Assembly: GCA_905221615.1 (NCBI GenBank)
Contig: CAJNDT010006135.1
Location: 1,516,934 to 1,580,933 of the forward strand
Source of the DNA: Symbiodinium sp. CCMP2592
Taxonomy: Eukaryota; Sar; Dinophyceae; Suessiales; Symbiodiniaceae
Length of the DNA stretch: 64,000 nt
Reading direction: 5' to 3'
In this document: positions 3,504 through 46,113 of the stretch, one piece after another
Layout: each line of letters opens with the position of its first letter
Numbering within the stretch: position 1 is the first letter of the stretch
The notes under the pieces: model-generated
Told to the model about the DNA's origin: nothing
The model's input: only the letters and a program-made list of their open reading frames with translations
Databases searched by the model: none
Program-made: the position numbers and the translations under genes

Positions 3504-3612
3504 CCCAGACCTTCCAAAATCCCTTAATTAAGGAATATACCTTAAATTATAGTAGGACCCTTAATATGATTTAAGGTATATTCCTTAATTAAGGGATTTT
3601 GGAAGGTCTGGG
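3504..3612. repeat. perfect long hairpin, 44-bp arms
   Basis: Bases 3504-3547 and 3569-3612 are exact reverse complements (44 of 44) around a 21-base spacer. The outer ends read CCCAGACCTTCC and GGAAGGTCTGGG. Each arm also holds an internal palindrome (CTTAATTAAG). No other full copy was seen, but the CCTTAATTAAGGAAT word recurs near 2455. Confidence 0.9.
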
Positions 3613-10479: not shown

Positions 10480-10602
10480 TACTTGGAAGATCATGGGACT
10501 TAGTAAGTAAGGTTATAAGTACCTTACTTGGGGCTATAAGTAATTATAGGTAAACTTACCTGAATTACAACCCGAGTTACTAAGTCCCATTACCCTTCAA
10601 GT
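10480..10602. repeat. MITE-like hairpin, family A copy 6
   Basis: Ends TACTTGGAAGATCATGGGAC and TCCCATTACCCTTCAAGT. It follows the family B hairpin by only 8 bp, so two unrelated hairpins are back to back. Confidence 0.8.
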
Positions 10603-11212
10603 CTGGAAACCCTTCTAAGGAATCTACAGGGCTCCTTTCAGGGACGTATAGGGTTCCTTTAAGGGATCCATCGGGTACATACTACTTTCGACACCTTTGA
10701 CGCAACAAGACATACTGGTGTCCAAACCAACGACTGCAAGCCCGTTTTTCTGCAAGCGGCGAGGGTCTTTTCCGAAGGTCTCATTCCCACTTTGGGCAAA
10801 TGGCGGGAAAGTACAGATGCCGAACCCTAAGGGTCCACGATGTGCTTTGGCCTCAGTGTACTTGTAGAGGGACTATGTCATTATTTTAAGGCCAAAACAT
10901 GTACTACTTGGGTACATGGACCCGTAGGGCAAAGGCTACGCGCATAGTTCAAGTGCCGAGACAGAAGGCAGCTTAAGGGATGCAAACACGACAGAAACAG
11001 GCCTCGCACCTAGTTCGATGTACACTTAAACCCTGAGTGCTATTCTTGAAGCAAACTGTTCGGGACATGGAACAGAAGACAGAGGTTAGTTAACCTGCTT
11101 TTTGAGTCTATGCGGGAATCAGGGCAGGGGTCTTTTGTACTGGGCTTTTAAGAAACCAGCGAGAAAATGTATAAACATGCATTTCATATATGGCACCTTT
11201 GAGGAAAAATTG
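10603..11212. other. intergenic; family E-like relic, no gene
   Basis: About 10,827-10,925 resembles family E (CCTAAGGGTCCACGATGTGC and TACATGGACCCGTAGGG ends). The rest shows no supported feature. Confidence 0.5.
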
Positions 11213-11324
11213 TACTTGGAAGGGCAGGGGACTTAGTAAGGAGGTTATAAGTAGAGTTATAAGTACCCTAAATGGAGTTACCCCAAGTATAACCCACTTA
11301 CTAAGTCCCCTGCCCCTCCAAGTA
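11213..11324. repeat. MITE-like hairpin, family A copy 7
   Basis: Ends TACTTGGAAGGGCAGGGGAC and CCCCTGCCCCTCCAAGTA. Belongs to the GGGCAGGGG subfamily also seen at 38,128 and 58,319. Core: AGAGTTATAAGTACCCTAAA. Confidence 0.85.
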
Positions 11325-11414
11325 TTCACGCATGGTATCCCGAAGCCCAGGCTATGGAAGAGGCCTCCCAGGATCCCCAAGTAGCCTTTAAAGGGCTCCA
11401 AGATTTCTGTGCCC

Positions 11415-11528
11415 TACTTAAAGGATCATGGGACTTAGTAACTGGGGTTATAATTAAGGTAACTATTCTTAAAACCTCACTTAGGGTACCTATAACCTTA
11501 CTTACTATGTCCAATGATCCTCCAAGTA
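11415..11528. repeat. MITE-like hairpin, family A copy 8
   Basis: Ends TACTTAAAGGATCATGGGAC and CCAATGATCCTCCAAGTA. Directly abuts the family G element that starts with the same AAGGGTCC word. Confidence 0.8.
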
Positions 11529-11648
11529 AGGGTCCCAGGTATCTCCCTAGGAGGGTCCGGAATCTCCTAGGGAGAGTCCTTGGGTCTGTTTGGGATCTCC
11601 AAAAACCCTCAATTTTGAGGTTCCTCAATTTGTTAGGACCCTTAGGGT
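11528..11648. repeat. MITE-like element, family G copy 1
   Basis: Begins AAGGGTCCCAGGTATCTCCC and ends GTTAGGACCCTTAGGGTA; a second, clearly homologous copy is at 55,890-56,013. TIR of the form AGGGTCC/GGACCCT. Confidence 0.75.
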
Positions 11649-11668
11649 ATGAGGCAATAAGGACTACT

Positions 11669-11750
11669 ACGGTTGATGATATAAATCCTGCATTACCCTT
11701 CTAAGGAATAAACCATAATTCCCATAGTTTAGGGTCCTTAAGGTAATGCA
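11669..11750. repeat. family B hairpin, copy 3 (right end truncated)
   Basis: Keeps the left end ACGGTTGATGATATAAATCC and GCATTACC plus the centre, but stops at AAGGTAATGCA without the final TTTATATCATCAACCGT. Confidence 0.7.
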
Positions 11751-11822
11751 CTTCTATCAAGAGTATAAAGGGTAGTTGGGGGATCCAGGTCTACTCAAGA
11801 TGATTACAAAGAGCGGTCCTGT

Positions 11823-11910
11823 TTAGGGTTTAGGGCTTTAGGGTTTAGGATTTAGGGTCTCGGGTTTAGGGGTTAGGGTTTAGGGTTTAGGATTTAGGGT
11901 TTCGGGTTTA
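11823..11910. repeat. degenerate TTTAGGG array at the 5' edge of the LINE
   Basis: TTTAGGG with GATTTAGGG and TTTCGGG variants runs up to about 11,910, where the sequence changes abruptly to GC-rich element DNA. The same variant mix resumes just after the N gap at 31,156. Confidence 0.85.
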
Positions 11911-12411
11911 AGGCGTCCTGGCTCGAGGCAAGGTAGCGGCTAGTCTCTCCGTTTGGAGTTTTGCTTGCCCGCTCTTGCCATTCCGGACCCCAGCATTCCC
12001 TGTGAACTGCGACTGGCGCAGCCTCTGAAAGGCTCGCCCAGGGCCAGCTTGGCCCCTTCTTTTGGTCACTGCTTTTCACTAAGCTGACCACTGCCAGAGG
12101 CGCTCTCTGGTGTGTTATTTTACCCTGGTATCTGGTGATATTCTGGGCTCTGGGTTGCTGCCTTAACTGAGCCAACCCTCGGGCCGTGCGGCCTTTTATG
12201 ACTGTCCTGGCGAGGTACCTCCCGATTCTACCGCTTTTATTGCTGGGATTGGGACTGCTTTGGCTTGGGCACGACAACGGCGCGGAGACGCCCACGCAGT
12301 CCCGCCTGGCATCGGCGTCAAAGGCGGGCAAGGCACAAGGCCAGGAAGGCCGCGCGAAAAGGGCGCTCCTCAGCGGCGCAGCTTTTTCTGCTTGCGATCC
12401 ACCACGGGAGC
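11911..12411 (+). other. LINE 5' leader
   Basis: GC-rich sequence between the telomere-like array and the first ATG of ORF1. Open frames on both strands exist here, but none shows a family resemblance. It probably holds the internal promoter expected of a LINE, though no motif is recognisable. A hydrophobic upstream stretch in frame with the giant ORF (ILPLLLLGLGLLWLG, about 12,225-12,270) is read here as an out-of-frame coincidence. Confidence 0.5.
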
Positions 12412-13905
12412 ATGGCTCCCAAACAAGGAGGTGCTGGCGGCCAGTCATCGCAGAAGGGCGGCCCAGGAAAGGGCAAAGAGAAAGCGGACAACCCGCAGGT
12501 TACAAAGATCGAATTTGGACTGCCCCCCTCGATGGTTCAATCCTTACAATCGATCGCGACCAGGGCTACACAGGACTTGTGGAGCCAGACAGCCTTTACT
12601 GCCGAGAATGCCACCGTCGAACAACTAGCCCAGCGGAGTGCAAACGCCCTGGGCCGACTGTCGAGGCGGTTGAACGGCAATGTCCGCGCCAAGAAGGACC
12701 TTCAGGATGCGCTGCTGGCATGGCTGTCTACAATGGGACAGCATCTTTTGGGCCTTGCCCACCGTGTAGATGCTCTCAGCCGGAAAGTGGACGAGGATAC
12801 GGTCGCTGCAGTGGAGGAAATGCGCCAAGTCATGGCGGCACAACCCTCTGTGACCACGGAGGAGCAGCTCGACCGTGCGATCCAGTCTCTGGGACCAGTG
12901 TGGTCCGAGGGCCAAGTGGTGGAGGTTCAGCGTTTGGCAGCAGCTCTTCGAGCCTTCTCCACGACCCTGGCCATGCCTTCGGGGACTCACGGTCCAGCGC
13001 CAGGGCTTGCAAGTGTGCACAGAGGTGGCCCCCTTCTCGGGATGCAAGCTGCAGCAGGACCCTCTTCGGATGTTCCTATGCTTTCTGGCCCTCAGCAGTT
13101 CGTTGGAGATCATGCTGCCGACCACAGCTCGGAGATGAGCTTTGGGCCCTTGGGCAACACATCCAGCCAGGCCCCTTCCGGAATGGATGGTCAGCGAAGT
13201 GGCCGATGGCGGAAACGCAGCGGAGGCAATGTCGATCGGCCCTCCAAAAGCCCACGTCGGGACCTGGAGGGTGCACCGTGGCCTGGGGAAGCCACAGGAC
13301 GTACTCCCGAAGGCCTCAAGCGCGATGCCCAGACTGCTGTTGCCGACGACGACCCAGAACTACTGCCGGCCACTGCAACAGAAAGTGCCTGGGTTGTGTC
13401 ATGGTTGGCTCTCCTTCGTTTCGCTGTGGACAGCGGAGCCGACTTGGTGGGCGAAGTCAGCTGCTGCCCCCAGCAAGACAAGGCCATGCAGCTCACTCTG
13501 GATGCTCAAGCGCTGGATGTGGTCCTTCGCACTGCCGAATCGGTCTGGACTGCTTTGGGAAATGCTGTGGCGGACCCGGCTCATGCCGACCTGCAATCGC
13601 TTTTTCTATCTCTGCAGGGATTTCTACACAGTGTACGGGGATGCGCCAATGCTCTGCCACAGGTTCGTCAGGGACTACTGGTGGCTGCGCTCCTGTCCAA
13701 TGGGAACCTCAGGGACCCGTTTGCATATGCCCCCTCTACCGCTCAGGAATGGTTGTTTCCGGACCTTCTCCTGGAAGCGGGGGTGCCATTGCGTGGGTTT
13801 GTGGCAAAGGATGCTTCAATGGATGCACACGTACAAGTTTTGCTGCGCATGCCTTCGCCTATGAGGCCAGTTGGACCAGACACCTGCCAGAACGAACTCG
13901 AGTGA
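12412..13905 (+). CDS. LINE ORF1 (gag-like) protein, 497 aa
   Basis: First ATG of its frame (MAPKQGGAGG...), ending at TGA 13,903-13,905. The N terminus is basic and Gly/Lys/Ser-rich (QSSQKGGPGKGKEKAD), suited to nucleic-acid binding. Residues about 30-190 are Ala/Leu/Gln-rich with heptad-like spacing (ALGRLSRRLNGNVRAKKDL, MGQHLLGLAHRVDALSRKV), suggesting a coiled coil like that of LINE ORF1 proteins. A second basic Ser/Arg patch is near residues 255-290. The C-terminal third is Leu/Ala-rich without motif. No CCHC knuckle is visible. Its position ahead of a pol ORF gives the gag-like assignment; sequence alone does not identify the family. The following giant ORF is in the -1 frame relative to this one and is already open at the stop. 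Confidence 0.65.
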   Translation: MAPKQGGAGGQSSQKGGPGKGKEKADNPQVTKIEFGLPPSMVQSLQSIATRATQDLWSQTAFTAENATVEQLAQRSANALGRLSRRLNGNVRAKKDLQDALLAWLSTMGQHLLGLAHRVDALSRKVDEDTVAAVEEMRQVMAAQPSVTTEEQLDRAIQSLGPVWSEGQVVEVQRLAAALRAFSTTLAMPSGTHGPAPGLASVHRGGPLLGMQAAAGPSSDVPMLSGPQQFVGDHAADHSSEMSFGPLGNTSSQAPSGMDGQRSGRWRKRSGGNVDRPSKSPRRDLEGAPWPGEATGRTPEGLKRDAQTAVADDDPELLPATATESAWVVSWLALLRFAVDSGADLVGEVSCCPQQDKAMQLTLDAQALDVVLRTAESVWTALGNAVADPAHADLQSLFLSLQGFLHSVRGCANALPQVRQGLLVAALLSNGNLRDPFAYAPSTAQEWLFPDLLLEAGVPLRGFVAKDASMDAHVQVLLRMPSPMRPVGPDTCQNELE

Positions 13906-16900
13906 CTTTTGATGTTGTCGAGCAGCATCGGCTTTCCAGCACAGCTGTCCCAGCGGGCTGTGGTAATAGAGACTTCGTTTGGTCGCAAGTCTCTCTTACC
14001 ACGGTCTGCCTTTTCCTCGGGCGCTGTGTGCTACTGTGTATAGCCCTGCGTAGAGTCAGTGTAGTCACGTCGCTTTTTCTTTCGGCCTATGGTCCCAAGC
14101 TTTCTTGGTTTCGGGCGTGGCAGCTTGGCAGTATCTGTTCCGCTTCTGCGTGGTGGGTCGCGGCCTCCTTCTGCCAGCCCTTCCCTATGGCACTCTGTGC
14201 GGTTACTAGCGAGCTTTTGGCCCTCCACCCTGCTCTGGTCCGCACTTTCTGCTGTGTCTTGGCGTGGCTTCCTTGCAGTTGGTGCTCACACCCTGCCGTG
14301 CAGGCCGACTTCCCGAGGCAATGTGGCCCTACTTGGGCGCACAGACAATGGCAGCATTGCTCTTCATCTGCAGCGGCCTTGATTTGGGCCTGCCTGCCCT
14401 TTACGTCCTCCTCATGGGAACATGACCATGCTTTGTGCTCGGTTTCCCGACTTGCTGGTCGTAAAGTTCAAGGATCACGTTACTGCGTTAAGGCTCGTCC
14501 TCAGAGGCATGCAACCCCAGGCCTGCACGTCGCGCTGCTGTTGCTGTACCTCTCAGTGGCTGATGGGGCTACTCTCAACCTTGGGGCCGCGGTTGTCTCT
14601 TCTTGCTTCATGCATTCCCCTGAAGCTGTGCAGCTCCACGCCCACGGATTTCACGAAGGCCTGCCTGTTCTCAGTACCGGACCTGTCCTCCCCACCCCGA
14701 CCGTGGAGGAGATGTGCGAGGTCTATCCGGTTGGGCGTACGGGGAATCTTCTTCTTCCTCGCACAGATCGGAACCGAAGGCATCTTTCTGTCTTTGTGGG
14801 TACGCCTCCCGGCGCTCCGATCCTGGAACCGTGCCCCATCCCTCTCCTGGTTGATGAATGGCTGCATGGCCCTCTTCTTCACGCTAGGTTGGCAGCTTCG
14901 CTGGGCTTTCCCTCTGGGGTGTTCTCTGCCTCTGCTGTACGGGGTGTCCTCCCAGGACTACCAGGTGAGCAAATTCTTCTGACCCCCGCTGCCTGCTCCT
15001 GGCGACAAGTGTGGCTGCCTGTGGATCTGCGTCAAATCGGAGGCCGTATCTGTATGCTTCAGTGCCCTCGTGACTCTACTTGCAGAGCCATTGCCCAACT
15101 TGCCCTTTCCGCCCAATCCTTGCAAACTGAGGTCGACCTTCTCCTTGCTCGATGCCCGTGGGGCTGGTTGACTCTTGTGTCCCAGCCCCTTTTCTTGCAA
15201 GATGTTGACACTCTGCAATTCCAGCTCGGGCCGTCTACGGGAGCGCTGGAAGGGCCTATAGGTGCCTCACTTGACCCTCCACTGTCACTGTTCTCAACCA
15301 TGCAGGTCAGTTTGCCCTCTGCTCCACTCAATCAAGAGGCTTTCCCAGGTCACTCACACAACCAGGCCATCCTCATCACTCCGAATGGCCTGGTCTATGT
15401 CGAAGCCCCGGTCTTTGCGGACGCAGCCACATTTAGGCGCATCGTCTCGACTCGGGCTTCCGCCAGTGCCACTGGAGGAATCATGCGCATTTGGCATCCT
15501 CTCCCTTCCCTGCCACTTGTCCAGTTTCTGGAAATCCACTGCGTGGGCGACGAAGTGCCGTGCATTTTGGATTTTCGGCCTGTGGGGTGGCGTCTTACTA
15601 CGGTGTGTCTTGCCCCGCCAGTCACAGCTGTCGCGGCGGTTTCAGCTGCCTCGACCAGGGAACGTAATAGCCTCCCCCTCGAATGGGTCGAACAATGTGC
15701 TAGAGGGGGTTTTGGGCTACTGCACAGGGAGTTGGCTGTTCTTCCTGATCAGGTCATTTCGGGGAGTTTTCCTCTTGTCATCATGTTCTTCCCACATGTG
15801 TTCCGTCAGGACTCCTCCTCCTCGTCAGAGGAGCAGGTTGGAGGCTGGGATGGCCCGGGTACGTCAGACACCATTTCGGCGCTTCAGCATACCCTGCTGC
15901 CTTCACCTGCCCGCGCTGCCACGCTTCCGGCATGCACGGGGATTTCGCCTGAAGCTTTCTTGGCTCCCTCAGGTTTAAGCCCCCCTGAGCCGGCTGCCGA
16001 GCCCAGCTCCGCCGGGTCAGCTGTGATGTCTTCCGTTATGTGGATTCAGCACATCCTGATCGGCCTTTGGCTCACTCATGACCTTCCGCTCGGCCGCGGG
16101 GCACTTTCTGTGTGGAGTTTAACTCCCCTACTCCTGTTAGTGTGGTCTAGTGCCGCTGTTCAGACCCGTAGTGAGCCCTCTTCCCCTCATGCCTTTGTCG
16201 TTGCAGCCTCCAGAGCCCCCGACCGTCATGTTGTTGCCCCCGCGGGGGTCCACGCACACCTCCAGGCCTCTTGGCTTCAAGTTGGGGACTTCGGCGATGG
16301 GACGCTGTGGCAGACGATCCCGCTCTCAGGGGTTAGCTTCTCTATCACTTGCCGGTTGTGGGTCCCGGGCTCCTTTGTTCGCCTTGAGTTTGCCAACACT
16401 GCTAGTGCCAGAGAGTCCTCTGCGGAACTCTACCGCCGCGCTATCCGGCTCGGCCGCCCCCACATCGTTGCTGCCTCTGCGGGACCTACACTTGACGCGG
16501 TCCACTTAGTCACCTTGCCACCTAGGAGCTCTACGTTGACCGTGCTTTTTGATGTTGGGGTTGAGATCGTATGCGTTGAGCTGCCCCTTGATTATTCTGC
16601 CGAACAGGTCCTGGCAGCCGCGCAAGGTGCGGCAGACTCGACCGACATTCAAATCCTTAAGGGTTCGGCCCATAGGCTTAGACAGGGCGATGTTGTTAAG
16701 GTTGTGGTTAATTCCGCTGCCCAAACCTTTGATGTCTCGGCCTTCACTCTGCCACATTGTGCCCCCTCTGCGTCCCGATGGTTGCATGAGACGCGTGTCG
16801 TCTCCCTGCTTCACTCAGGAGAAGGCGTCCTCTCCTTTGAGGTGCCTCGTGCGGCTGAGGTCGATTCTGCCCTTCTTCATGCCCTCCTGCGGCAGGTCCT

Positions 16901-19900
16901 GCCTGGGAAGCACATTTTCATCGAGATTCCCGATACCGGGGCCCTTCCCCATGCCACGTTTGCTGCAGTGAGTTCGGGGCAAGACTGCATCATTTATCGT
17001 CTTACTGACGCCTCTGTCCCGACGACCCCGGGGCTCTTTCTTGCGTTCTCTGGAGTATTTGACTCCTTTTCTGCCTTCTTGGAGAGTCTCCTCAGCAGTG
17101 GGCGGCCCGCCGCCGGGCTCCTCCGCAGCCTGCGCACCTTTGGTCTCTCTGTGCTCACCTGGGAATGCACCACCATCCCTACCCGTGACGACTGCCACTT
17201 CTGGTATGTCCACGTGCAAGCCGATTTCGCGCGGGCGCGGCGCCACGCTGTGCATTTCTTTGGGCACCCCCGCGCTATTCGGCAACCTTCTGTGCTGCCC
17301 CCGCCTCGGGCGAGAGCTGTTACACATGTGGGTGTTCAAACCAATGCCCCCTTTATCACGGCTAGCACCCAGGCCGCTGTGTTGCCATCACCCCCGTCCT
17401 CATGCGGGGCAGGAGTTGTGCCGGATTCCGCGTCTGAGCTTGTTAGCCTGTGGTGTGATTCTTGGCACATTAAATGTATCGTTGCCTGCATTCCAGGTTT
17501 CACTGTCTGGGCACTGAGGGAAGGCGGCCGCCTTGTTGGAATGTGCACTCCTGTCCCGACTTGGGAAGCTGTTACTCGAGCACTTTCCCTCTCTCTTTGG
17601 GAACTTCCCCAGACCTTCCTCTCTGATAACAATCAGGTCTGGCCGTACCCTCGGGATCTTGCGGACGTCACCAGGAAGTGCGTTAGTGTAGGATATGACT
17701 CGCCCGAGGGCGTTTCGCAACTGCTGCGTCACTGCACAGCACCTTCTCCCAGCCCACCGCCCTCTCCCCCTGCCTCTCATTCCGCTGCACTTGGCTTTGC
17801 TTGTTTTAGTAAGGGTAAGCCTTGGCTGGGGTTTCTTCTCTTCGCTATGCAAGCGGGATCCGTGCAGCTTGCGATCACGTCAACTGCCCTCACTTCGCGA
17901 GTGGGAGCCGATGATCCTCTGCTTCCTCGGCGAGACTACACGCGGACCTGTACCCTCTCCTGGACTCATGAGCTAGGGCGTCAGACTTATGGCTTCGCGG
18001 TCGCCGCCCCTCAACTCGGCGCTTATGTGGAATGCACCTCGCCGTGGCCTGAGGTCCAAATCCATTTGTGGTTGCCAGGCCAAGGTCCGGTTCACATGCG
18101 AGTCGGTGCCCGCCACATGGACATGCACCTCAGCGCCTACTTGGGTGCTTTCCTGCCCGATTGCGAATACGGTCTTCATGTTGCGTACGACTCCAATCCT
18201 CAGGTCCTAGACCTGGTCGTTGCGCCTCCTTCTCCTGCGGCATGGTGGATCCTGAGAGACTCTATTGGGTGCGAGTTGCTTCGGCCGGTCATCCAGCACT
18301 ATACGTCGCACTGCTCCTTTTTCTTCTGCACAGTCGAGCCCGACGGGGTTGTTCTTAGTGTTGAGCCCTCAGCCGAAGTCCGACAAATGTCTCCGAGCCC
18401 GCATGGGGCTAGAGCTTTGATCTCGCGTGCCCTGCCCGGCCTTATTGGTCAGGTGATTGATGGCACGCTGCTGATTGTTGCAGCTAAAGCAGGGCCTTTG
18501 GTTCTTGGTCACCTCGCTATGCTCTTGTTAACTTTTCATGCGGCTGCGATGCAACCACCGCAGGCGCATCAACTTGTACCGGTTGCTGAGGTTGCTCCCA
18601 CACCGTCCACCATGCGCATCTGGACCTTAAATGTGCCGCAGCCAGTCGACCTGCCTTGGCGTCCCCAGGGGTATCAGACCCGGTGGCTCCGTGAGTTGAT
18701 GTGCCGTCTCCACCATATTCCGGATCCGGGGGAGTTCCGTTCCACTCACTCCCAGCAAGGGGGTACTGTTCAGCACGTTCTCTTTGCGCCTGTCGTACCT
18801 CCAACCCTTCCTACGGCCAGGTTCTGGCTCCTCCATTGGGGCGCCGCGGCGGTCGTCACCTTCGGTCACTCGCCCTTCAATTGGGAAGTTGTCTATGCTC
18901 ACCTCCGCACTCTGTTTCAAGGTGGCCAATTGCCGGAGCGGTGCCCCACACTTGCTTATGCTGGCCAATTCTACGCCCCTGGCACGGTTTTGCCGGACTT
19001 CCCCTCGGGTGCTATTATCCAGATTTTAGTCGGGGCCCTTGAGCGGCTACCTGGTGACGATGACCCCTGGAACCCGGAGCCTTTCGTTGTTGAGAGTCCT
19101 TACTTTCGTCACATTCCCAGTCGCGGCCCCGCGCTTGAACCGGCCATTGTTCTGGATGGTCACGGCAACAGGTTGGCTGCCGGAGCTCTGCAATCCCCTC
19201 TGGTCGATCAAGGTGTTCAAACCGACCTTTCCGGAAATGGCACTGGCCTTGATCATGCCACTGTCTCCAGGGTGCATCACCTCTCCCAGGAGCTCTCGTT
19301 CCACACTGCTCGGCTCTGGGCCGGCCTCGCCGAGCCTGATGCCGAGCCGGCAGGCGACAATCCACCTGTCTTGAGACTCTCCTCCCAGAGTGCATGCGCG
19401 GCTGATACCTCTACGACTGATCTTTTGGATCTCAGTGATGCAGCAGGTTCTCAGGCTGTGTGCAGACTGCCGTGGGCAGCTTTGCTTCTTCTTGGCGTTC
19501 AGGTGCCTCGCGCCCTTGGGGCGGTTGGGAGTCTCCTTGTTCTTGCTTCCCTCAACTCGGGGTCCATCATTACGCCACCGCAGGCTAGCTCTGAGGAAGA
19601 GCAGGCTAATGATACTGCCCCTCCGGCTGTGCGGGCCACTAATATGTCAGCTGCGGACTGGGCCCCCGCACCCGTTGTGCGACCAGCCGGCCCTCCCCCG
19701 CCAGAGCCGGCGAATGCTCCCTTCCAACCTCACATGATGTTTCTTCGCGCGGCGAGGCCACTTGAGGATTATGCCTTGAGACAATGGCCCTCCACGGTAG
19801 ATAGGGAACCTGCAGCCGATGAAGATACGGTGCGGCGGGTCCAGGCTGACCTCCAAGGCCTTCGATGCGGGATCCGAACACTGGCAGCCGCGATCCCACT

Positions 19901-22900
19901 CGGCACGCCCTTTTGCATTCATAACCCGTTCACCGCACGGCAGCAGTGTGAGTTGGTCGAGTATTCAGCGGGCCCCGAAATTAATCCCTTCGTCCTCTTC
20001 GCGGGTCATGCTAGAGGCCGCGGCTGGGCAGGTCTGGTGCTCCTCCAGCCCCAGCCCGATGCCAGGGCAGTTCATCTCATTGGCTGTCCTCAGGCGGCCG
20101 GTAACGTAGCTGTAGGGGTTGCTATTGAGCACCGCTTAATTCCCTGCTGCCTCCCCGCGACTGTTGATATCGCTGCCCTCAGTGCCCTGCGCTTGGATGG
20201 CACTGAATATGACCTTCGGCCGCCTGAGGTCCAGGAAGGCACACAGGTTGTCCAGTTTAGGAACGGCGATTGCCTTTCAGCTAGGCGGCATGTTCCCCGT
20301 CGTTCTCACCAAGGCCAAGCTAGCCGGGATCCTGCTGCTGCTAGAGGAACGGTGAGTGCGGGCGAGCGCGATGCCAGCCCTGCTGACGAATCCGCAGCCA
20401 TAGCTGCCTCACCATCTCTCTGGGCCTCACTTTTACTCGTGCAGGCCCTTCGCAGCCGCCTTGGCTCTACCTGGCTTGTTGCTGCCATTCTACCCAGCCT
20501 GGTCCAGAGTATGCACAGACCTGGAGGCTTCCCATGGGGAACCGACTCGGCAAACCGTGTTTTCTCAGGGATAACTGCTGAGGATCCAGTCTATGTAGTC
20601 CTGCATAGTCCCTTTCTAGGGGTTTTCCCTCCCTACACGGCATCTCAGGAGACCCCCCACTCGCAAGTCTGGGCGCAGTTCCGCAATGATGACCCAGGTT
20701 GGGCGGAAGACTTCTTCCCCGTTTGGCCGGGGCCGGCATTCAATGAACTTTCTATCGTCCCAATTGGACGTGATCCAGCTTTGGTCACATTGATGCTTAT
20801 CTGGCGGGGCCACCACCGGGCCACACTTGTTCCCCGCACGATGACCGTGGATTGGATTACGTCCTTCACGGCCAGACATATCAATAGTGCTGTCGGGGGT
20901 GTGTCACTTCCCCACGGGCTTGCCGTCTGCGAACTTTTTGACGTGCCACCTGCCGCGTTTAGGTTCCGCAACGGGGACGTCGTGTATGTACATGATCCAC
21001 CAGATGACCCCGATGAGCCACTCGAACTAGTGGAGCCCTGGCATCTACAGGATGGTCTGGCTGCACATCACGCCCCCTGGGCGGTCGGATTTCAGCTCAT
21101 GTTCCCGATTTCAGTCCATTTGCTGCGACCTGAAAAACCGCCCTTGCTCACCACTATACCGGCCGGCGAATCTTGGTGCCCTGAAGCGTTCGCCTTTTCA
21201 GGCGAGTTCCAACACCATTTCCCGGGCATGTGGACACCTGTCCAATGGACGAGTGCCCGTGCCCTGCAGCTTATTGAGGTCAACGGAGTCGCTGCTCGAG
21301 TCAACGTTGTCGCGGCCACGCCGGAGGGTCGATTATGCCGTACTGTCGACCGCATTTCCTCTCGGCACAGCGTTGCTGACCAGTTGCACTTCTATCCAGA
21401 TTCGATACAAGTTGGCGGAGTGCCTGCGTATGCCTTGGACCAGGCCTGCGAACTCAGGAACGGTGATGTGGTGTTTGGGGCATTTGATCGGAGTGCATGC
21501 CCTCGTAGCCCAGGCTCCCCGAGTTGGTGGCTCGGTGTGACCCTCACCACCTTGCATCTGAGCCAGCAGTGGCAAACGTGTCTGCCTCTACTTGTGGGTT
21601 GTACCCTTTCATTCCACGCCGGTCTCAGCGACCCATATGACATCACTCCCTCTCATGCGCCTCACACTGCTGCTGCACCTAGCTGCCAGTCGCTAGTCGG
21701 AGGGTCCTCCTGCTCTGCTGATGAGGATCCTCCCTGGAGTGGCATGGCCCTGGGCTGCGCCTCATCTGCCATGGGTGGCCCACAGTCTTGGTGGCGGGGC
21801 TCTCTTTGCTGCCCCATCCTTCCTGGTGTCTCGGCCGCCCTCCTGTTTTCCGGCCTACGCGGCATTGCCCTTCTGGCGGCCTCCGCGTGTATTCCTGCTT
21901 CTCAGGCCATGCTTCAACAAGCGTCTGCCTCGTCAGCCACTGTCCCGGCTGCTGCAGCTCCTCGCGTCACTGTGACGGTTGCTAACCCTTTTGCCCCTTG
22001 GTATCGGGTCGAAGCCGACCCGCGCAACCTCTTTGACGATGTCGTCGCTGATGCGCATCACACTTTAGCATCTTGGCATCAGGGTTTTGCAGCTACGGGA
22101 CTTGTGCTGGACAGCACCCAGGTTGTTGTACCCTTGCCCGGGCGTCGCTTGGTCTGCTTGTTGGTGCAAGGCATGGGTCAGCTGCTGTGCGTTGTCCTGC
22201 CAGCTTTCATGACCCCGCGGGATCTCACGCAAGCCATTCAAATGCGACTTGGCAAACGAGTCAGCGTCAGCCTGCTACCTGGACTGGCGGCTACTGTCCG
22301 TGCCAGCCGTCCGGTCCTTGCTCTGAGATCTGGGGATATTATTGCTATCAGCCCACTTCAGCTTGACCCACTTGCCGGACCGCGGAACCCACCTGTCTTT
22401 CTCACATGGGGGGCTGCCCATGCTGCGGCCGCGTGGCACTCAGACTTTCTCGTTGCTCAGGCCTCCTGTGTTCTGCTATGGTCGCCTGGCCGCCCTACTC
22501 GCGTCGCCCTTTTCAGGCATCAAGCCCGATGGATTGCAGCTGCCGCCACGGTACATCACCATGAGCAAGAGCTAGGAACCCACCGCTGGGCACCTTGCCA
22601 TGGTCACCTCGGCGCCCCACCTTGGCTCGTTGAACAGTCTGAGGTGGCTGGCCGCGCTAATATTATCCAGTCCTGCGACTCTACTCGTTGCATTGAAGTG
22701 GAGCGCGACGCCCATGACCTTCACATCTCAGGTTATACTGTTCGCCCTGCCTCAAGTCACGCCTGCCGCACTGCCACTGTGCGCGATGGCGACTGGTGGG
22801 TCCACTCAGCGGCCGTTGGGCTGCTTGGGCGCCATCTCTCCTTCCCAGCACAGCTCGCCTGGCTTCTCTACAGCCTGGCCGCCCAGGCTTGGGCTGGGTC

Positions 22901-25900
22901 TTCGAGCTGCCCAAGTGTTGACTCCTCCGAGGCTAGAACCATCCGCACCCGCCGGCGACCCAGCCGTAGTCGTTCACCGGGTTCACAGTGGCCGGGACGG
23001 TTTTTCCCTCCTCGAGTTGACTTTAATGATGGGGAGCCCTACGTTCCGCAGAGTGGCTGGCAACCTGACGCCCCAGACGGCCCACTCGCACGCTGCTTTC
23101 CGGGGCCTCGGCCGCAGACCGCCAGAGTCCTCTGCCCCCTGCGGGGCTGGAGCGAGCTCTTGTTTATTAACCTGGCAGGCACCTGGCGGGAAGTGGAGCA
23201 TGAAGGTGCTCGGCACTGCGGTCTTTGGTCGCGCAGGTTCTTTCCGGTGCGTGCTGTGCTTCCCGTCTCGCAGCTCACTCTTGCTCCAGTGGCCCCGTAT
23301 GGCCTCGCTACAGTTGTCTTTCACATGGAAAGTTGCTCAGCCGTGGCTTTGGCGTCTGTTGACTCCAGTTTGGTTGACCTTCAGCGGCTCGCCGCCCGTG
23401 TGTTCACGCATGCTCGCTACTGGCGAGTGGTTGCGCCGCCTGTGTTACGCGCGGCCAACCCGCACACTCATCTACGGTTGCGTAACGGCGACGCCTTTAG
23501 TCTTGTTCCTGAACAATCTCAGCCAGAGGCCACCCGCTTCCCACTGCTGCAGTACCCCTCCCTCGAGCGGGCCCGACAGGTTGCCAGCTGGTCTCTTCCT
23601 TTTCGGTTTGACTCTGGTGGGCTCGTAGTTCTCTGGTACTCTAATCGTCGGCTTGGGCACTACATTAGGATTAGGGATACGGGCTACTGGGACCCTGAAG
23701 GTCCCACCTTTTGGAGCCTTAACGGGGAGGCTTTGTCAGGTTCATGGGTCCCGGTCCTTACGGGTGACCTGTCGAGTCTTCACTTGGTGCATCAAGCTTC
23801 CGTTGGTGAGGCGCACGTTCTCTTCCTTCTGCCGCCGGACCTCGTGCCACAGGGCCGGCGGCTCGCGGGCTGCAATGCCTATCGTGCCCCTCCTGGGTGG
23901 CGACTTCTGCCAGCTCTGCAATATGTTCGCGCGGACAGCCCTCTTCGAGACGGCGATGTGCTAGTCATCGACCCAGACGCCAGCGTGGTCTGGGACCCCT
24001 TCGGTCCACTTCCCTCCGCGGCCGTAGAGGAGTCTCATTCTGATTGGCCCTCCTGCTCGTCACCTTCTGGGATACGAGTGGCCGGTGGGCTTGCCTTTCT
24101 TGCTGTCGCTGCTCGATGGCCCCGTTGGCTTACTCTCGCTCTCCTTTCTCATTACGTGTGCGGCATGGTTCCGGTCCTGGAGGTGCCTGATAGGCCCGTT
24201 CGCACAGGCCTGTACCCATGGCGAGCCAAGCCCGGCGAGGAAGACCTTGTCGACCTCTCTCCTGGCACTGAGATTGACGTTGTGTATCTCAGCCCTTTCA
24301 CTGGCCCGCGGGAAGCTGGACGTCTCCCCACTGTGTCCACACTTGAGGATCTGAGCTCGCTTGCGCGGGCATGCGATCCTGAATGGGCTGCTGATGTTGC
24401 GCCGGTGTGGCCCACAGCGGCCATCCCTGCCCTGCTTGTTGTACCCAGGCCCCTCTCTCTCGATATGGTGTGTCTCGCCATATCGTCCTTGGATCAACAC
24501 TTTTCCATTCTGACTCCATGTGTCACTTCAGTGTCATGGCTCAGTTTTGCTCTTCGTTTTCTGCAGCCTATGCAGACCCTGTCCGTGCGAGCTCCCAGCC
24601 CTCTCACTGCTGAGGCCACCACGGATCAAAATGTTAGATGGCGCTCAGGGGACCTCGTTGTCGCTCTTCCGCCCGCCGCCTTTGTGCCTGAGTATCAACC
24701 GCCCTGCTTCCACTCTGACACTCAAGTTCGTCATTGCGCCATATGGTCGGTTGATTTTTCAGTTTCCTTTCGAGCGAACTTCGTCCTGTGGCAACCGGGC
24801 GTCAGGGCCGTTCGGGGACATGCCCCCGCAGGAGCTCGCTGGCAGGCACTCGACTTCACCTTCGAAGGGGAATTCTGCCAACATTACCCCGGTCGCTGGG
24901 TGCCCGTCCCCTGGATTGCCCAGGACCATACGCATCTCGTCCGGCTTCCTGAGGACCCATCCCGTGCCAATGTGGTGGTGGAAGCGGATGGTCAATGCTG
25001 GTGCGCCTCCATCACTGCTGTCACAGATGCGTGGCAACTGTGGACTGAACTGCCGACTGTCTCCGGCCAACCTCGGGTCCTCGGCGTTTCTCATCGCGAG
25101 CTTAGGCAGGGAACTACCCTACGTAGTGGCGATGTGGTGTCCGAGGCCTCCGGACGCTTTACACCTTGGGCCGTTTTCAGCTTGATCGGGGCGTCTGGGT
25201 GGCGTACTGCTGGGCCTAGCGCGGCTCTCCTCGCTATTGGACTTGCCTGGGGGCATTCTGTCGGGGCTACTCGCTACACTGGCGCTGCCCCGAGCTCCTC
25301 TCTGGACCGGCACGCAGAGGGCCCTCTCTTGCCAGACTGCTTCCCTACTTGCCATCGGCTGTGGGATCCTGCTTGTGGGGTCCTTGGACCCTTCCGTGGT
25401 ACCTCTTTGGAGCTCCCTGTCGCTCTTCGAGATGCTGCTCCCGCATGGTCATCCTTTACCCGGGTTCACCCTCCACAGGACCCTCGCCTTGTTGACTGGG
25501 TTCCGGTGCCCTCTGACCCGATGTTTGCCACCGTCCTTCTCCAGTGCCCCCCGGCCACCCGGGCTGCTTTCCTTCCAGCTACGTGCGCCGCTGCCGATTT
25601 GCTCCGAGCCTACAATCGAATTGTCCGGGACTTGTCTCTCATCTTGGCACCCCCCGAAATTTGGTGTGGGACGGCTACCTCACCGAACCCCACTCTTTTC
25701 CTCCGGTCCGGTGACGTTCTCACGCTCGCTGGAGAGACCTGGGCTCCTCGCCTTCGCTCGCCGGCCGGGCGTTACTGGGACACGCTGCTGCAGGCGCGTC
25801 ACTTCGCCTTCTGGGGAAGCCCTTTCAGCATACGCCAACCTGGGCTCCTGTTTGCCTGGTCACCTGGTGACCCGGTCCCACTCACTGTACCCACGGTTCG

Positions 25901-25988
25901 CGACGAACAATGGGACCCCGTGCACTGCACATTTCGGCCCTCCCTTGCCTGCTTCAGTGTCACTCGATGGATTCCTGCACAGCGATGA
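13906..25988 (+). CDS. LINE ORF2 segment 1: giant modular repeat region
   Basis: One uninterrupted frame of about 4,027 codons. Its first ATG after ORF1 is at 14,187; alternatively it could be reached from ORF1 by a -1 shift. It ends at TGA 25,986-25,988. The protein is built from a two-part module ending in [LFVW]R[NSDQ]GD motifs, found at about 16,684, 20,256, 20,970, 21,456, 22,326, 22,783, 23,482, 23,946, 24,643, 25,118 and 25,710. Spacing alternates about 470 and 700 nt. The second half of a module has the pattern W..F...W.PG...W....F.G.F..HFPG.W.PV.W...L (best at 21,070-21,260 and 24,740-24,920). Most modules are followed by a hydrophobic stretch that could span a membrane (e.g. LWASLLLVQAL, GGLAFLAVAARW, AALLAIGLAWG). 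I recognise no known family. A beta-grasp-type fold is only a guess. Confidence 0.75.
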
Positions 25989-28163
25989 CCTTGGTCTTCA
26001 CCTTGTCCCTGAGAGCCCGAACCTGCACCGTGCGCATGTTCTTCCCGCACAGCCTCCCCTGCACGTCCAGGTCGTTTCGCGACAAGGGTCGAGTGGCCTG
26101 CTGCGTGACGGAGATAGCCTCTCTGGCTGTCGACCAGCCCCGTCCCGTCTCCTTCCCCACCTTTTAGTTGGGGGTCTGCTCCCCAGTACTCTCCGGCGGC
26201 CTTGGCTGGCGGCCCTTGGTCTCGGGCTCCTGGCAAGCTACGGCCCGCCAGCCTTTCCAGCTCATCCGCTCTCCCCCCGGGCAGGGGCCCTCTCAGGGAA
26301 CTGCCTGGCTCCCGCGTTTGATTTTGGCCTCCTGTTCCGCACCAGCTGCTATCTCCGCGCTCGGGGCGCGCCTGTCTGGAGCAGCACTGATGGAATCTCG
26401 TGGTCGGCCGATGTTCATGAGGAATGCGTCGCCCAGGCTTCCATACACCAACTCTGGTGGTCTCATGAGCTTTACCCGTTTCTTCCCGCATCCGCCCCTC
26501 CATCATACCGTCAGGCTTTCTGCAACTTCCCGCTCTGGCACGGGGGAGTGCCTGACCAGGTCTTCATTGCCACTGACGGCAGCGGCGAGCATGGAGGGGC
26601 TTGGGCCTTCTGTGTGTGGGCTTGGTGGCGCCATCGATGGTACCGCGTCGGTTGGTTTGGGGCCTCTGGCCATCAGCTCCCATGGACCCCCGACCTGCCG
26701 CCCTCGGCAGGCGGCCTCTCCTTCCACACTGAACTCGCGGCCTTGCAGGCTGCCGGACTCTGGCTTATTGCCTGGGTTGACCGCCTGTCCCTTCTCACAG
26801 CCTCTGCCCCTACCAAGGTTACTGTTGCGGTCGATAACGCTGCGGCACTTCAAATCGCAGCAGGGCAGGCCCAGGCCGCAGCACCTGCCACCACCACCAG
26901 TCGGTATGTTTGGCAGGCCGTTCAAGCTCGGCTCTCCACACGGTTCCAGCATGTCCATAGCCACGTCGGAGTGCTCCCAAACACCTTCGCGGATTTCCTT
27001 GCCGGCTGGTCGGGTCGAGTCTCCTGGCAACCGTGGAAGCAGCTTGACCCTTTGCTACCCTCCCTCATGCAAAACGCGGCTCCGTGGCTTTGGGTCATCC
27101 CACATGCTCGTGTCGTCAAGGGTCGGCCGTGCATTTGTTTGGTCTCGCAGACCATCTCATGTGCCCCTGCTACTGATGCTGGTGACGTGCCCCCTCCTGC
27201 CGAGGATACCTTGACATCCACTGAGGCCGCTGCTCCACCGGGTCGTCCTCTTGCCGATTCTCCCATCCCTTTGCGCTTGGTCACAGCCAATGTTCAAACG
27301 ATGCGTGACTCCAACGCTTCATTCTTCAATCCCTCAGGGCACGGTCAGCGGCGCCAGTACCTTTATTCTCAGGTTGCTTCCTTAGGCCTTGACGTTGTCT
27401 GCCTGCAAGAAGCCCGCAGCAAGGGTGGCCGTTGGGACACAGCCGGCCTCCTCACCTGGCGCTCCGGCGCGCAGAAAGGGAGTTACGGTTGTGAAATCTG
27501 GATAAGGCCTGGCATTACCAATCCGCCCTTGCGGCTTGATGACTGGCGCATCGCTAGCGCCGACCCTCGTCTTCTCGTTATTGTCAGCAAGCGTGCGGAC
27601 TTACCCATTGCTGTCATCGCCGCCCATGCTCCCCACGCTGAGCGGCCCGCTTCTGAGATTCACCACTTTTGGTCTTCGCTGCACTCGTCCCTGTGCCAGT
27701 TGCCTCGGGCTCTGTCTCTTGTTCTCGGCCTGGATGCTAACGCTGACCTACTTTGGGCGGACGAAGACCACGCCTATATCGGCGACTGTCTGGGCAACAG
27801 TGAGGAGGGTGCTGGCGAGCAGGGTCTTTTTGACACTATCCAGCGTTTCGGCCTTCTTGCTCCGGCTTCCTTCTCCGCCATCCAGCAGGGCCCGGGTTGG
27901 TCCTGGGAGCATACGGGCGGAACCAGGAAGCGGCTTGACCATCTCCTGCTTCAGGCGGGTCCATGGCAGTGCACCCGCGCCCGTCAGCTTCCCGAGTTGG
28001 ACATTCTTAACGGCCGCAGAGATCATATGCCTCTCCTTGTTGAATGCTGTCTTAAACGACAGGCGACACCGGCACGACCCCCCGGGGCATCTAACCGAGC
28101 TACCGCTAAGCAAGCTCAGCTTATTGTGCTGCCAGCCTTTGGCGTGGGCTCCCATCTCCCGTG
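25984..28163 (+). CDS. LINE ORF2 segment 2: last module, RNase H, EEP endonuclease
   Basis: This frame is open from 25,237 but the biological part starts at about 25,984, where it continues the module broken by the stop of segment 1; its own LLRDGDSLSG motif is at 26,098-26,127. RNase H spans about 26,555-27,015 with all four acidic/His signature sites: FIATDGSGEHGG, HTELAALQA, VAVDNAAAL and HSHVGVLPNTFADFLA. The EEP (AP-endonuclease-like) domain spans about 27,270-28,060 with VTANVQTM, CLQEARS, AAHAPHAE, LGLDANADL, KRLDHLLL and GRRDHMPLL, so the metal and catalytic residues look intact. It would nick target DNA for target-primed reverse transcription. RNase H lying upstream of the endonuclease is unusual. 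The frame closes at 28,521; the protein must move to the -1 frame somewhere in 28,110-28,170 to reach the polymerase. Confidence 0.85.
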
Positions 28164-31055
28164 CGCAGCATCGTTGAGGTTGGACAGGAGATCAGGGATC
28201 TCAAAGCTAGGCACCTCCGCCTCTTGGAGGCCCTTCCGCGAGCCCCTCGGCGGCCTGCCCGCCAGCCCTACATCACTGCCGAGTCTGTTGCCGCCCTGGA
28301 TGTTGTGCGGCAGGCTCGCGAGCAACTCCCGCGCCTCCGCAGCAATGTCGAATGGCAGAAACGGCGCTTTCTTCTCCTTGTGTGGCGTTGGAGTTGCGTC
28401 AGGGGTCGATCCGACACTGCTGTACCCCGCCCAGACCCCACCGGGCTTCAGCATGCCAGGTTGTTGTTACAGGCCTGTAATTTGCATATCCGGGGTCTGC
28501 AGCAGAAGGCACACTATCTAGCCCGTTCTGACAAGCTTGCCCATTTCCGCACTCTTACCCTTGCTGCCACCCAGCACTGGGAATCCACAGGCATTCCTTT
28601 GGAATCTATCCGGCATCTTCGATGGGCCTCTCGCAAAGCCCACGACCGTCGAGCTGTGCACGCCGCTGGCGGTTTCGACATCGACCGTGAGCTTGAAGCA
28701 CAATTTCGTGACCAGGAAGGCGCCCGCCTCGTCTCTCCTGCACTGCTCTCACGAACAGCCGAGCAGTGGCTCTCTGTCGATGCCACTCGCTCCCCGTGCC
28801 TCGAGGCAGTTCCTTCACTGCTCCAAATGGAGCAAATGTGCATCCGACAGGCACCAGCTAAGGCACCAGGACCTGACGGCCTGCGGAACGAGCTCTGGCG
28901 GGAACATGGAGCTCTTGCCGGACAATGGCTTTGGCCACTCTGCACCCGCATTGCGCTTCAAGGCCGAGAACCCTTCGATTTCAAGAAAGCCATCGTCTGC
29001 GCCCTCTACAAGAAGGGCCCGGCATCAGTACCTGCCAACTACCGTTCCATTGCCCTCCTTAACGGCATCGCTAAGCTGTGGCATTCGCACCTCCGCACCA
29101 CGGTCGGTGGACATGTGCTGTCTCGTTATGAGCCCATGCAGCTAGGAGGGCGCCGAGGTGTTCACACTGGGTTTGCACTGGCGGCTTTCCGATGCGCCTG
29201 GGACCTTTCCGTCGCAGCGGGGCGGTGCGTTGCTGTTGTCTTTGTCGACATCCAAGCCGCTTACTATGAGGCTAGCCGGGATCTTCTTTTCGATGGCTTC
29301 CCTGACGATGTTGATGTCCCGGAGCACCATCACCTCGCTGGACTTGTCCTCCAGCTTCACGGCCAGGGGGCTCTCTCCGCTCTTGGCGTTGCTGAGGATG
29401 TCAGCGCGCTCCTTCGGGATTGTGTTGCCCTGTCCCACTGGTCGCTCTCCGGGTCGGACAACATTTTCTTGGCCTCCCGAGGCTCCCGCCCCGGCGACGG
29501 CCTAGCGGACGTTTTGTTCGGCGCCCTATTTGCCATTGGGCTGCAACACATACAGCGCACAGCTTGTTCCATGGGCATCTCGCACACCAGTGCCGGGGTC
29601 GAGATCGGCCTCGAGCCAGGCGTCAAGCCGATTGGCTGGGCTGACGACCTTGCCGTCCTTGCGGACTTCGATAGTCCTGCCGAGCTCCAAACACAGCTCC
29701 CCCAACTCACTGGTGTCATTCTTGATACCCTCCGGTGCTTGCGGTTCCGGGTCAATCTTGGAGCAGGCAAAACTGAGGCCCTTGTCGATATTAGGGGAGA
29801 CGGTGCTCGCGCTACACGAGGCGCCTTGCTCAGCGGCGACGCCCTTTTGGAAGTCTCCAATGGTGACAGCATTCGACTTTGCCCTGAGTACAAATACTTG
29901 GGTGTAGCCCAACTGCCTCGAGACACCGGCAGGCGCGACTGCGAGCTGTCGGCACAGCGGGGGTCAGCGGCGGCGTCGCTTGCCCGAACCCTGCTGTGCA
30001 GCAATTGTCTTCCCTGGGAACTGAAACGAGCCTGGATTACCGGCCGAGTTCTCCCCTCAGCTTACTCCTCCTTGGCCTTCTCGCGCGCTGACTCCGCCCG
30101 GGCTGCTGCGCCATTGGCTGGACTCTTTGAACGCACAGCTAGGATCCTGTTGTCTTCCTGGCAAGTCGGTCACAAACTTACCACCCCCTTGCTTCGGCTT
30201 CTCGCTGATATCACCCCTCCTGACCTTGCTACCACTGTTAGCCAGTGCCGCCTCTGTGTGCAACTTTTCTGCAAGGCTCCAGCGGCTGTCAGGGAAATTG
30301 TCGATGCTGCGTGGAACCGGGCAATCCCTTGGTGTCAGGCCCTTGTCCTTGCTTGTTTGCGAGTAGGAGTCGCCCTAGACTCCTGGGACCCCGCCGCTCC
30401 TCCCGCCATCACTGTCCTGTTCGTCCAGCAGAACGGACGCGCTCTCCTTCGAGCGTGCAAGGCACTGAGTAAATTTGGGCACAGGTATACTGCCTGCGCC
30501 CAGCTTTGGGCGGACCTTGCCACCCGTCGCGCCACCAAGATCCTAGGTTCGCCACAATCCCACAGTTGTCCGGTCTGTCGAGGTGTTTTCCCGAGCCTTC
30601 ATGCTGTACGCGCTCACATGCATCGGAAACACGGCGTCCTGTCTGATGTGACTGCCTACATGGCGGGCTCGGTTTGTCTCTGGTGTATGCGGGACTTCCA
30701 ATCCTCGGATCGACTGAAGCACCACCTTCAAACGCAGCGCTCCTGCCTGCACGGCCTGCGTGTTACAGTCGGCCCTGTCTATCAGTACGGCTCGGGCACA
30801 AAACGTTCGGGTCGTGCCAGCCACCGGGGAGTTCCTCCACAACGCATCTGCGGTCCTTGCAATGCCACCCCAGCGCAGAGACGGGCGGCCGACCTCGGGG
30901 TGCCGGCCGATGACGCGGCCCTACAAGCTGAGTGGGAAGCTGTTCAACGCTCCCCTGCGCTCTCGGACCTTGTCCCCGGCAACCTGCATCGACCATCTTC
31001 CTTGTTGCCTTCCGACGATGCCTCCGGCACTCAGCAGGCCTGCCTTATCTCCGCT
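28110..31055 (+). CDS. LINE ORF2 segment 3: reverse transcriptase and zinc fingers (3' partial)
   Basis: Same frame as segment 1. No ATG precedes the conserved core, which argues for access by frameshift or for mutation. A charged helical linker (EIRDLKARHLRLLEAL) leads to the reverse transcriptase at about 28,850-29,900: AKAPGPDGLRNE, YRSIALLNG, motif A FVDIQAAYYEA, motif B SRGSRPGDGLADVLF, motif C GWADDLAVL and motif D FRVNLGAGKTEAL. The catalytic aspartates (FVD and ADD) are present. After a thumb-like region come two zinc fingers: CPVCRGVFPSLHAVRAHMH..H (30,568-30,633) and CLWCMRDFQSSDRLKHH (30,678-30,735), then an ICGPC motif near 30,845. Such fingers are known in other LINE groups as nucleic-acid binding modules. 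The frame stays open to the N run at 31,056, so the true C terminus is unknown. Confidence 0.9.
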
Positions 31056-31155
31056 NNNNNNNNNNNNNNNNNNNNNNNNNNNNNNNNNNNNNNNNNNNNN
31101 NNNNNNNNNNNNNNNNNNNNNNNNNNNNNNNNNNNNNNNNNNNNNNNNNNNNNNN
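31056..31155. other. assembly gap (100 N)
   Basis: Exactly 100 N. Round length suggests a scaffolding gap of unknown size. It hides the end of LINE ORF2, the 3' UTR, any tail and the target-site duplication. Confidence 0.99.
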
Positions 31156-31599
31156 TTTCGGGTTTAGGGTTTCGGACAGTTCACAAAACCCTAAGAGCTG
31201 AACCAGAAACCTTCAAACCGCGAGAAACTCCCCAACGTAGTTCCTTCTGTCACTACCTGGCTTCTCTATTGCTGGGTCCCAACTATGTGTACAGCTACAT
31301 GGAGGGTATCGGTCAGTCCGTAGCCTACCCTCAACCCTGCTTAAAACTCTAAACCGTGGAATCTTGAGCCTGATGCCCAAAGCCTAATTACTTAAAGCCC
31401 AAACCGCCTACACCCGTTAAGCCCTGAAGCCTGAAACCCCTATGAACCCCGAACCCTGCGCGACGAAAGTTAGGCATAGAATTTGCAACCATCCTCTGGG
31501 AGGTCCCCGCGGTCGTTTGGAACCGATTCGGCGCCGTGCTCCAGAAATAGCTTCCTTGGGCTGAAACTGCATACTATACAGAGTTTAGGCTTTCGGGTT
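31156..31599. other. TTTCGGG/TTTAGGG remnant, then spacer
   Basis: Starts TTTCGGGTTTAGGGTTTCGG, the same variant array as on the 5' side of the LINE. The rest has scattered CCCTAAA-like words and no gene. Confidence 0.6.
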
Positions 31600-46055: not shown

Positions 46056-46113
46056 GACGGAAAACAGTCTAAATAGAAAATCCAGCACATGGTTGTGCTA
46101 CCAGCAAACGAGA

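Follow-up and report, generated by a model that had tools for sequence, protein, structure and literature searches.

The 64,000-nucleotide stretch of the Symbiodinium sp. CCMP2592 genome analyzed here (contig CAJNDT010006135.1; hereafter the window, whose own numbering is used for all coordinates) carries a LINE-type (long interspersed nuclear element) retrotransposon, and the long open frame within it is the second open reading frame (ORF2) of that element. The N-terminal region of ORF2, about 4,000 amino acids long, holds an array of repeated units whose order is shared with related proteins, which is under purifying selection and which is depleted in lysine. The modeled unit is predicted to consist of beta-grasp, or ubiquitin-like (Ubl), folds, and we class the element as a LINE whose N-terminal domain family is new and has a predicted ubiquitin-like fold, and not as a member of any ubiquitin family. 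We tentatively favor the possibility that the ORF2 N-terminus is a chain of such domains acting as a multivalent Ubl scaffold tied to the host ubiquitin system.

An open frame of 12 kb

One frame on the + strand runs without a stop codon from 12186 to 25985, and its span 13908..25985, in the -1 frame relative to ORF1, encodes the ORF2 N-terminal region. First-order Markov simulation of 13908-25985 (200 runs) gave 94 in-frame stops on average and never fewer than 66, against none observed, and the longest open run in simulations of this region did not exceed 487 codons. An earlier note on this DNA had described an open frame of about 12 kb inside a LINE ORF2; the frame and its setting are as described, and the same element has an apurinic-type (APE-type) endonuclease, a reverse transcriptase (RT) and an RNase H. 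In the window copy the frame breaks at 25984/25985, where the last unit passes into the next frame. The positions of these breaks differ from copy to copy, which points to damage private to each copy, or to indels from assembly, in a lineage that is itself maintained. A programmed frameshift at 25985 was considered and ruled out, as the breaks differ in place and one copy (L012) is open in a single frame from unit 5 into the RT part.

Repeat units and their predicted fold

The motif [LFVW]R[NSDQ]GD occurs 11 times in residues 574-4600, whereas 2,000 shuffles average 0.03 occurrences and never exceed 2. From 20256 onward the occurrences are spaced by 708, 489, 870, 456, 699, 465, 696, 480 and 582 nt, so that the alternation of spacings reported in the earlier note is real, with two deviating intervals (870 and 582). 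Its proposal of a recurring unit with older units upstream holds in part. BLASTP of the whole protein against itself found no off-diagonal match at E<=1, but Smith-Waterman comparison of the ten pairs among units U1 to U5, with 100 shuffles per pair, placed nine above z>3 (U1-U4 at z 33.6, eight others at z 3.9-13.4); U1-U3 fell below this cut, and the U2-U3 score of 65 lies under its best shuffle of 66. A hidden Markov model (HMM) seeded with a pair of units and refined iteratively on the window protein and 19 homologous proteins then detected five full units in the last 2,000 amino acids of the window protein and two partial ones. All lie on the + strand. The HMM cores of the first four are Unit 1 at 20595..21356 (residues 2804-3057, independent E-value (iE) 1.2e-94), Unit 2 at 21969..22712 (3262-3509, iE 2.3e-73), Unit 3 at 23121..23843 (3646-3886, iE 1.3e-77) and Unit 4 at 24279..25025 (4032-4280, iE 2.1e-86). 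Unit 5, from residue 4409 (25410..26067), crosses the frame break and reaches iE 1.1e-69 on the joined reading, without the first 24 columns of the model. The partial units are found at 19911..20306 (residues 2576-2707, iE 5.1e-35) and, in a diverged form seen also in hhalign windows, at 16383..16799 (residues 1400-1538, iE 1.6e-20). Most of residues 574-2570 has no match to the unit, even by profile-profile windows. Paralogous units in the window are 18-28% identical to one another; a window unit and its positional counterpart in the homologous protein P0019 are 39-62% identical. Linkers of about 60-160 amino acids separate the units.

The proposal of a new repeat domain family is upheld by the absence of any Pfam or PDB sequence match for the units; the only signal was to UreE_N in one of 16 members, at E 0.18. 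A Pfam scan of the protein P0001 at E<=1 returned no family, and when the unit alignment was compared with proteins of about 170-540 amino acids, none of the 7,997 best candidates scored reached E<=1e-3. No ubiquitin family in Pfam was matched by any of the 16 members at E<=1, nor did the PDB profile search give a hit at that threshold.

Prediction of the structure of one unit, as the earlier note had proposed, gave an AlphaFold2 model for a stretch of 304 amino acids at 24270..25181 on the + strand (pLDDT 84.9, pTM 0.83). The model is predicted to contain four beta-grasp-like parts, which we divide as D1 (about 1-60), D2 (62-140), D3 (160-226) and D4 (230-295). Its best structural matches are the Ubl domains of USP7, as found by Foldseek, and linear polyubiquitin, while one subdomain has the UBL of Plasmodium Dsk2 as its best VIA match. 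The beta-beta-alpha-beta-beta order is backed in D2 by VIA and Foldseek and in D4 by strand order and a profile match to D2, making these the clearest predicted folds of the unit. D1 and D3 are assigned to the beta-grasp by strand order only, and the remaining units by their homology to the modeled one; each unit probably has two to four predicted beta-grasp folds. A second model, of residues 740-1939, had a pLDDT of 31.8 and was not used.

The earlier note had suggested membrane-tethering or virion-like modules, citing a hydrophobic stretch after most motif pairs. Trp- and Leu-rich segments do follow most second GD motifs, and 22 inter-unit segments from five proteins lean hydrophobic, with a mean rank of 0.28. 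None of these segments ranks below 0.07, however, and counts of hydrophobic 19-mers lie within the shuffle range (12 in the window against a shuffle mean of 9.5, 12 against 14.3 in P0019, and 9 against 10.7 in P0027). The hydrophobic stretches are weak, and together with the beta-grasp-like model these tests make membrane or virion modules very unlikely.

The predicted fold also raises the idea of a processing device, in which host deubiquitinases or other proteases would cut at Ubl borders and free the RNase H, endonuclease and RT from a giant polyprotein, much as ubiquitin inserted in pestivirus polyproteins gets cleaved. Among viral models, Foldseek gave a match at E 2.8e-4 to a protein of Pandoravirus named ubiquitin, and weaker ones (E 0.018 and above) to fragments of pestivirus polyproteins; these matches, and the length of the P0019 gene model (5,982 amino acids), would suit such a device. 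A Gly-Gly pair within 20 amino acids behind the GD motifs, however, is wanting in 30 of 31 cases (present behind 0 of 11 in P0001, 1 of 11 in P0019 and 0 of 9 in P0027). Deubiquitinase cleavage is therefore unlikely, and we regard the processing device as improbable.

Homologues and age of the array

A 501-base probe (20000-20500) gave at least 37 matches, 65-100% identical, in the genome of 1.098 Gb and 5,383 contigs. A first protein search found 19 homologous proteins, all from CCMP2592, and a second added seven more from CCMP2592 and three (P0032, P0033 and P0034) of source 'ena', not assigned to CCMP2592, that are 37-42% identical to the query. The 29 proteins and the probe matches provide the copies elsewhere that the earlier note had expected; as the searches scored the candidates sharing most words with the query (1,427 and 7,990), the spread over species is a lower bound. 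Many of the homologous proteins are gene models, some of them chimeric. The models P0022, P0026 and P0027 fuse parts of the element to other sequence under names such as Ank2, CPK2 and PTAC2, and are probably chimeric annotation.

Three unit positions are common to the window array and P0032, P0033 and P0034, with two units in P0034; the array therefore predates these families and its order has been kept. When 37 units, drawn from the window and seven of the 29 homologous proteins, were placed in a maximum-likelihood tree, they grouped by position, although two of the five P0027 units (2675 and 3064) sit on long branches and their placement is unsure. Since the units are homologous, they arose by internal duplication, as the earlier note had proposed. 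The grouping of same-position units across families indicates, however, that this duplication is old and that the array is not now expanding.

Purifying selection

For 17 fetched loci, codons were compared with those of the window copy over 20583-25984. As every comparison uses the window copy, the resulting ratios of nonsynonymous to synonymous substitution (dN/dS) are not independent. In 12 of these loci (L009-L020) the array has a dN/dS of 0.106-0.168, with third-position differences in large excess; L010 equals L011 at 9,897 of 9,900 positions, leaving eleven distinct copies, and L018 reaches only 23673. In the distant loci L021-L025 dS is saturated, and no dN/dS value is given. Among the compared codons, in-frame stops are absent from 11 of the 12 loci and one is present in L019, while eight of the 12 have at least one indel whose length is not divisible by three. 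L010 and L011 (G000:C447:269726 and 253425) lie 16.3 kb apart on the same contig with these 3 differences, and represent either a recent tandem duplication or an assembly duplication.

The ORF2 N-terminal part gave a dN/dS of 0.082-0.182 in ten of 11 loci, some of them partial (299 codons in L030); the value for L036, with a dS of 3.17, is not trusted, and a single in-frame stop occurs in each of three of the 11 loci. For ORF1, present in six of 11 upstream loci, the range is 0.137-0.227, and in nine of 17 downstream loci the RNase H-endonuclease part gave 0.109-0.176 and the RT part 0.019-0.063. The array is thus under purifying selection about as strong as that on the RNase H-endonuclease part and weaker than that on the RT, in agreement with the earlier suggestion that selection keeps the frame open.

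These values bear on the most skeptical explanation, a decayed or artefactual frame that is open through base composition or assembly and has no protein product. The private frame breaks and the high-GC, T/C-rich strand are compatible with decay, and Symbiodinium LINEs in general are described, in PMC8045281, as divergent remnants of an old expansion with Kimura distances of 15-40. Against decay stand the low dN/dS with its third-position excess, the stop-free frame, the presence of homologues in other families and another source, and a dS of only 0.04 for the closest copies, which indicates that this element family moved more recently than Symbiodinium LINEs in general. We consider a decayed frame extremely unlikely.

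Lysine depletion and possible functions

Residues 2571-4600 (2,030 amino acids) contain 3 lysines, compared to 18.4 expected from base composition at the three codon positions (P 1.3e-5). Asn AAY codons (28 against 31.3 expected) and Arg AGR codons (21 against 22.9) are near expectation, so it is lysine that is scarce and not A-rich codons. Depletion is weaker in the first half of ORF2, with 11 lysines against 20.7 (P 0.015), and has the opposite sign in the RT (23 against 11.2), ORF1 (17 against 12.4) and the RNase H-endonuclease part (9 against 6.1). The ratio K/(K+R) in the array compared to the RT is 0.019 against 0.20 in the window (Fisher P 7e-7), 0.063 against 0.238 in P0019 (P 4e-6) and 0.090 against 0.239 in P0027 (P 3e-4), the array side in the latter two proteins being the whole region between ORF1 and RNase H. 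In P0034 the array was compared to the RNase H-endonuclease part (0.033 against 0.269, P 3e-3). These comparisons are related and their P values not independent, and the RNase H-endonuclease part of P0019 (4401-5098) runs counter to the pattern with a ratio of 0.089. The array is a lysine desert, a feature that it shares with UBL-UBA shuttles. In PMC10169902, lysine deserts are described as prevalent among ubiquitin-system proteins, including the UBL shuttles RAD23A, UBQLN1 and UBQLN2, and are proposed to prevent unwarranted ubiquitylation.

It is mainly from this parallel that we infer a role in the ubiquitin system in preference to a neutral scaffold. The Ubl chain would form a multivalent docking surface that holds the element ribonucleoprotein (RNP) on host partners able to read Ubl folds, candidates being the proteasome or Cdc48-type shuttling, deubiquitinases, or chaperone-like escort. 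Such docking could protect, escort or tether the RNP, and the avoidance of lysine would keep the array un-ubiquitylated despite its closeness to ubiquitin ligases. The C-terminal RNase H, endonuclease and RT would be carried along and perform ordinary target-primed reverse transcription. A stronger version, in which a giant and nearly lysine-free poly-Ubl chain captures or blunts the host ubiquitin-proteasome system as a decoy, shield or RNP escort, seems doubtful; if it held, this would be the first mobile element known to us to do so by a tandem Ubl array, its order kept across host lineages.

Nearly as likely as docking to the ubiquitin system is that the chain has only a structural role, as a scaffold or coat: a gag-like platform for RNP assembly or a spacer, made from a general protein-binding fold, with no tie to ubiquitin and with low lysine incidental or serving RNP assembly. 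Beta-grasp folds are widespread binding modules, and the placement of the array between ORF1 and the enzymes would suit such a scaffold, as would the missing Gly-Gly pairs, the lack of sequence kinship to ubiquitin and the absence of a ubiquitin-associated (UBA) domain from Pfam scans of P0001 (E<=1) and of P0002 and P0003 (E<=10). A structural scaffold does not, however, predict that lysine would fall below the level set by base composition, and do so repeatedly in divergent families. A lysine-poor Ubl array encoded by a retroelement would provide a concrete and testable link between retrotransposition and the host ubiquitin system in dinoflagellates.

Organization of the element and its surroundings

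The window copy occupies approximately 11915..31055 on the + strand, its borders drawn from GC contrast (0.585-0.622 within the block at about 11.9-31.05 kb, 0.44-0.52 around it), an N run and comparison of its ends with other copies. A gap of 100 N at 31056-31155 cuts off its 3' part. Four other copies extend past this point by 0.65 kb or more, and L040, one of four fetched 3' loci, has a GTGAGTGAGTGAG tail 0.76 kb on, which is probably the 3' end of the element; the other three loci end before that point. The full element is therefore about 19-20 kb long. No long terminal repeats (LTRs) were found between 10501-14500 and 29001-33500, the window copy's own 3' end being missing; this comparison yielded seven short matches of 30-81 columns, each inside a telomere-like tract at 11823-11912, and six of these were to the opposite strand.

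ORF1 (12265..13905, +, 547 codons including the stop) has no Pfam match at E<=0.01. Relative to ORF1, ORF2 is shifted to the -1 frame in the window; six loci carry ORF1, and the four with both runs listed (L027, L028, L029 and L031) show the same relation. The ORF2 frame stays open across the whole of ORF1 in the window (12186-13905 compared to 12265-13905) and also in L027, L029 and L031. In the P0019 and P0027 gene models the two ORFs are fused into one protein, a feature that may belong to these families themselves or may come from the gene modeling.

Downstream of the array lies the RNase H domain (26545..27039, +), matched by PF00075 in three of five aligned family members (best E 4.8e-6), the window member not being among them. 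The family alignment has invariant TDGS, E, D, H, N and D positions and gave nothing at E<=0.1 in a PDB profile search. The APE-type endonuclease follows at 27328..27966 (+; PF03372, E 3.6e-7, 30.6 bits, above the cut-off of 24.5), and then the RT core with its WADD motif (28746..29780, +). Its assignment as LINE-type comes from a family profile, which matched four sequences of LINE-1 ORF2p at E 2.2e-4 to 5.3e-4 and, at E 1.1e-4, the entry 8c8j, named RNA-directed DNA polymerase; single-sequence matches reach E 0.008-0.023, and RVT_1 is found in one of five members (E 0.048). A C2H2-like zinc finger at 30558..30632 (+) matches zf-C2H2_2 below the cut-off (E 0.0051). In RNase H-bearing LINEs of the I and R1 type, RNase H usually stands after the RT. 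Here, in the window and in P0019, P0027 and P0034, it comes before the endonuclease. As P0034 reads from units through RNase H to the start of the endonuclease in one frame, this gene order is no artefact of the window, and the element combines a new domain family with a domain order unusual for a LINE.

A TTTAGGG-like tract stands at the 5' border of the element in the window (11821-11910) and in L027, L028, L029, L031, L032 and L033, with an exact TTTAGGG heptamer within the first 41 shared bases in five of six copies. Telomere-like sequence also follows the N gap in the window (31163) and the tail in L040, and recurs further out in the 5' flanks of L031 and L032, and heptamers are absent from 12000-31000 of the window. 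A telomere-like target preference is possible; telomere-like sequence is common around the element, and the chance of a heptamer in a random 60-bp flank here is 0.15. We do not claim insertion into telomeric arrays, since the 5' flanks of six copies differ beyond the short tract. Elsewhere in the window, the region 38992-54000 holds, on the - strand, a Copia-type element with RVT_2 (E 1.2e-16) in an ORF of 2,628 amino acids and, behind it in the same orientation, three further long ORFs (973, 761 and 608 amino acids) with no Pfam match at E<=0.01.

Comparison with known systems

No account of a Ubl array in a non-LTR element appeared among the matches listed in the open-access literature; since most subscription papers fall outside that scope, the evidence of absence is weak. 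Like the tandem Ubl domains of USP7/HAUSP, its best Foldseek match, the array is predicted to have several diverged Ubl folds per chain. It differs from USP7/HAUSP in probably having more of these folds, in showing no sequence kinship and in lacking a detectable USP catalytic domain (Pfam scan of P0001, E<=1). Linear polyubiquitin, ISG15 and FAT10 are likewise head-to-tail beta-grasp chains, but the array differs from them in its wanting Gly-Gly, its low identity between units and its long linkers. With LINE-1 ORF2p the element shares an APE-type endonuclease followed by RT, whereas here RNase H precedes the endonuclease; to our knowledge, LINE-1 has neither an RNase H nor an N-terminal array. 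As far as we know, this ORF2 would rank among the longest LINE proteins. The UBL shuttles Rad23 and Dsk2/ubiquilin, the latter represented by the best VIA match, are likewise lysine deserts (PMC10169902), but they have a single UBL instead of an array, and no UBA was found here in Pfam scans of P0001, P0002 and P0003.

Dinoflagellate genomes hold many retroelements (PMC8045281 and PMC5890265). Accessory domains of retrotransposon polyproteins are discussed in PMC6338049, in which the word ubiquitin does not occur. Domains named in a figure legend on retrotransposons in PMC5890265 include Exo_endo_phos, RVT_1 and RNase_H. The closest parallel within the genus is provided by SymbioLINE-Dnmt and other Symbiodinium LINEs, which, according to PMC5890265, likewise carry an extra domain under purifying selection. 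In SymbioLINE-Dnmt the extra domain, a DNA methyltransferase, is encoded by an ORF that precedes the one for the RT, whereas here it is a predicted Ubl-like region of 4,000 amino acids at the N terminus of ORF2 itself. As Symbiodinium LINEs with a captured DNA methyltransferase are known (PMC5890265), the gain of extra domains by LINEs has a precedent in the genus.

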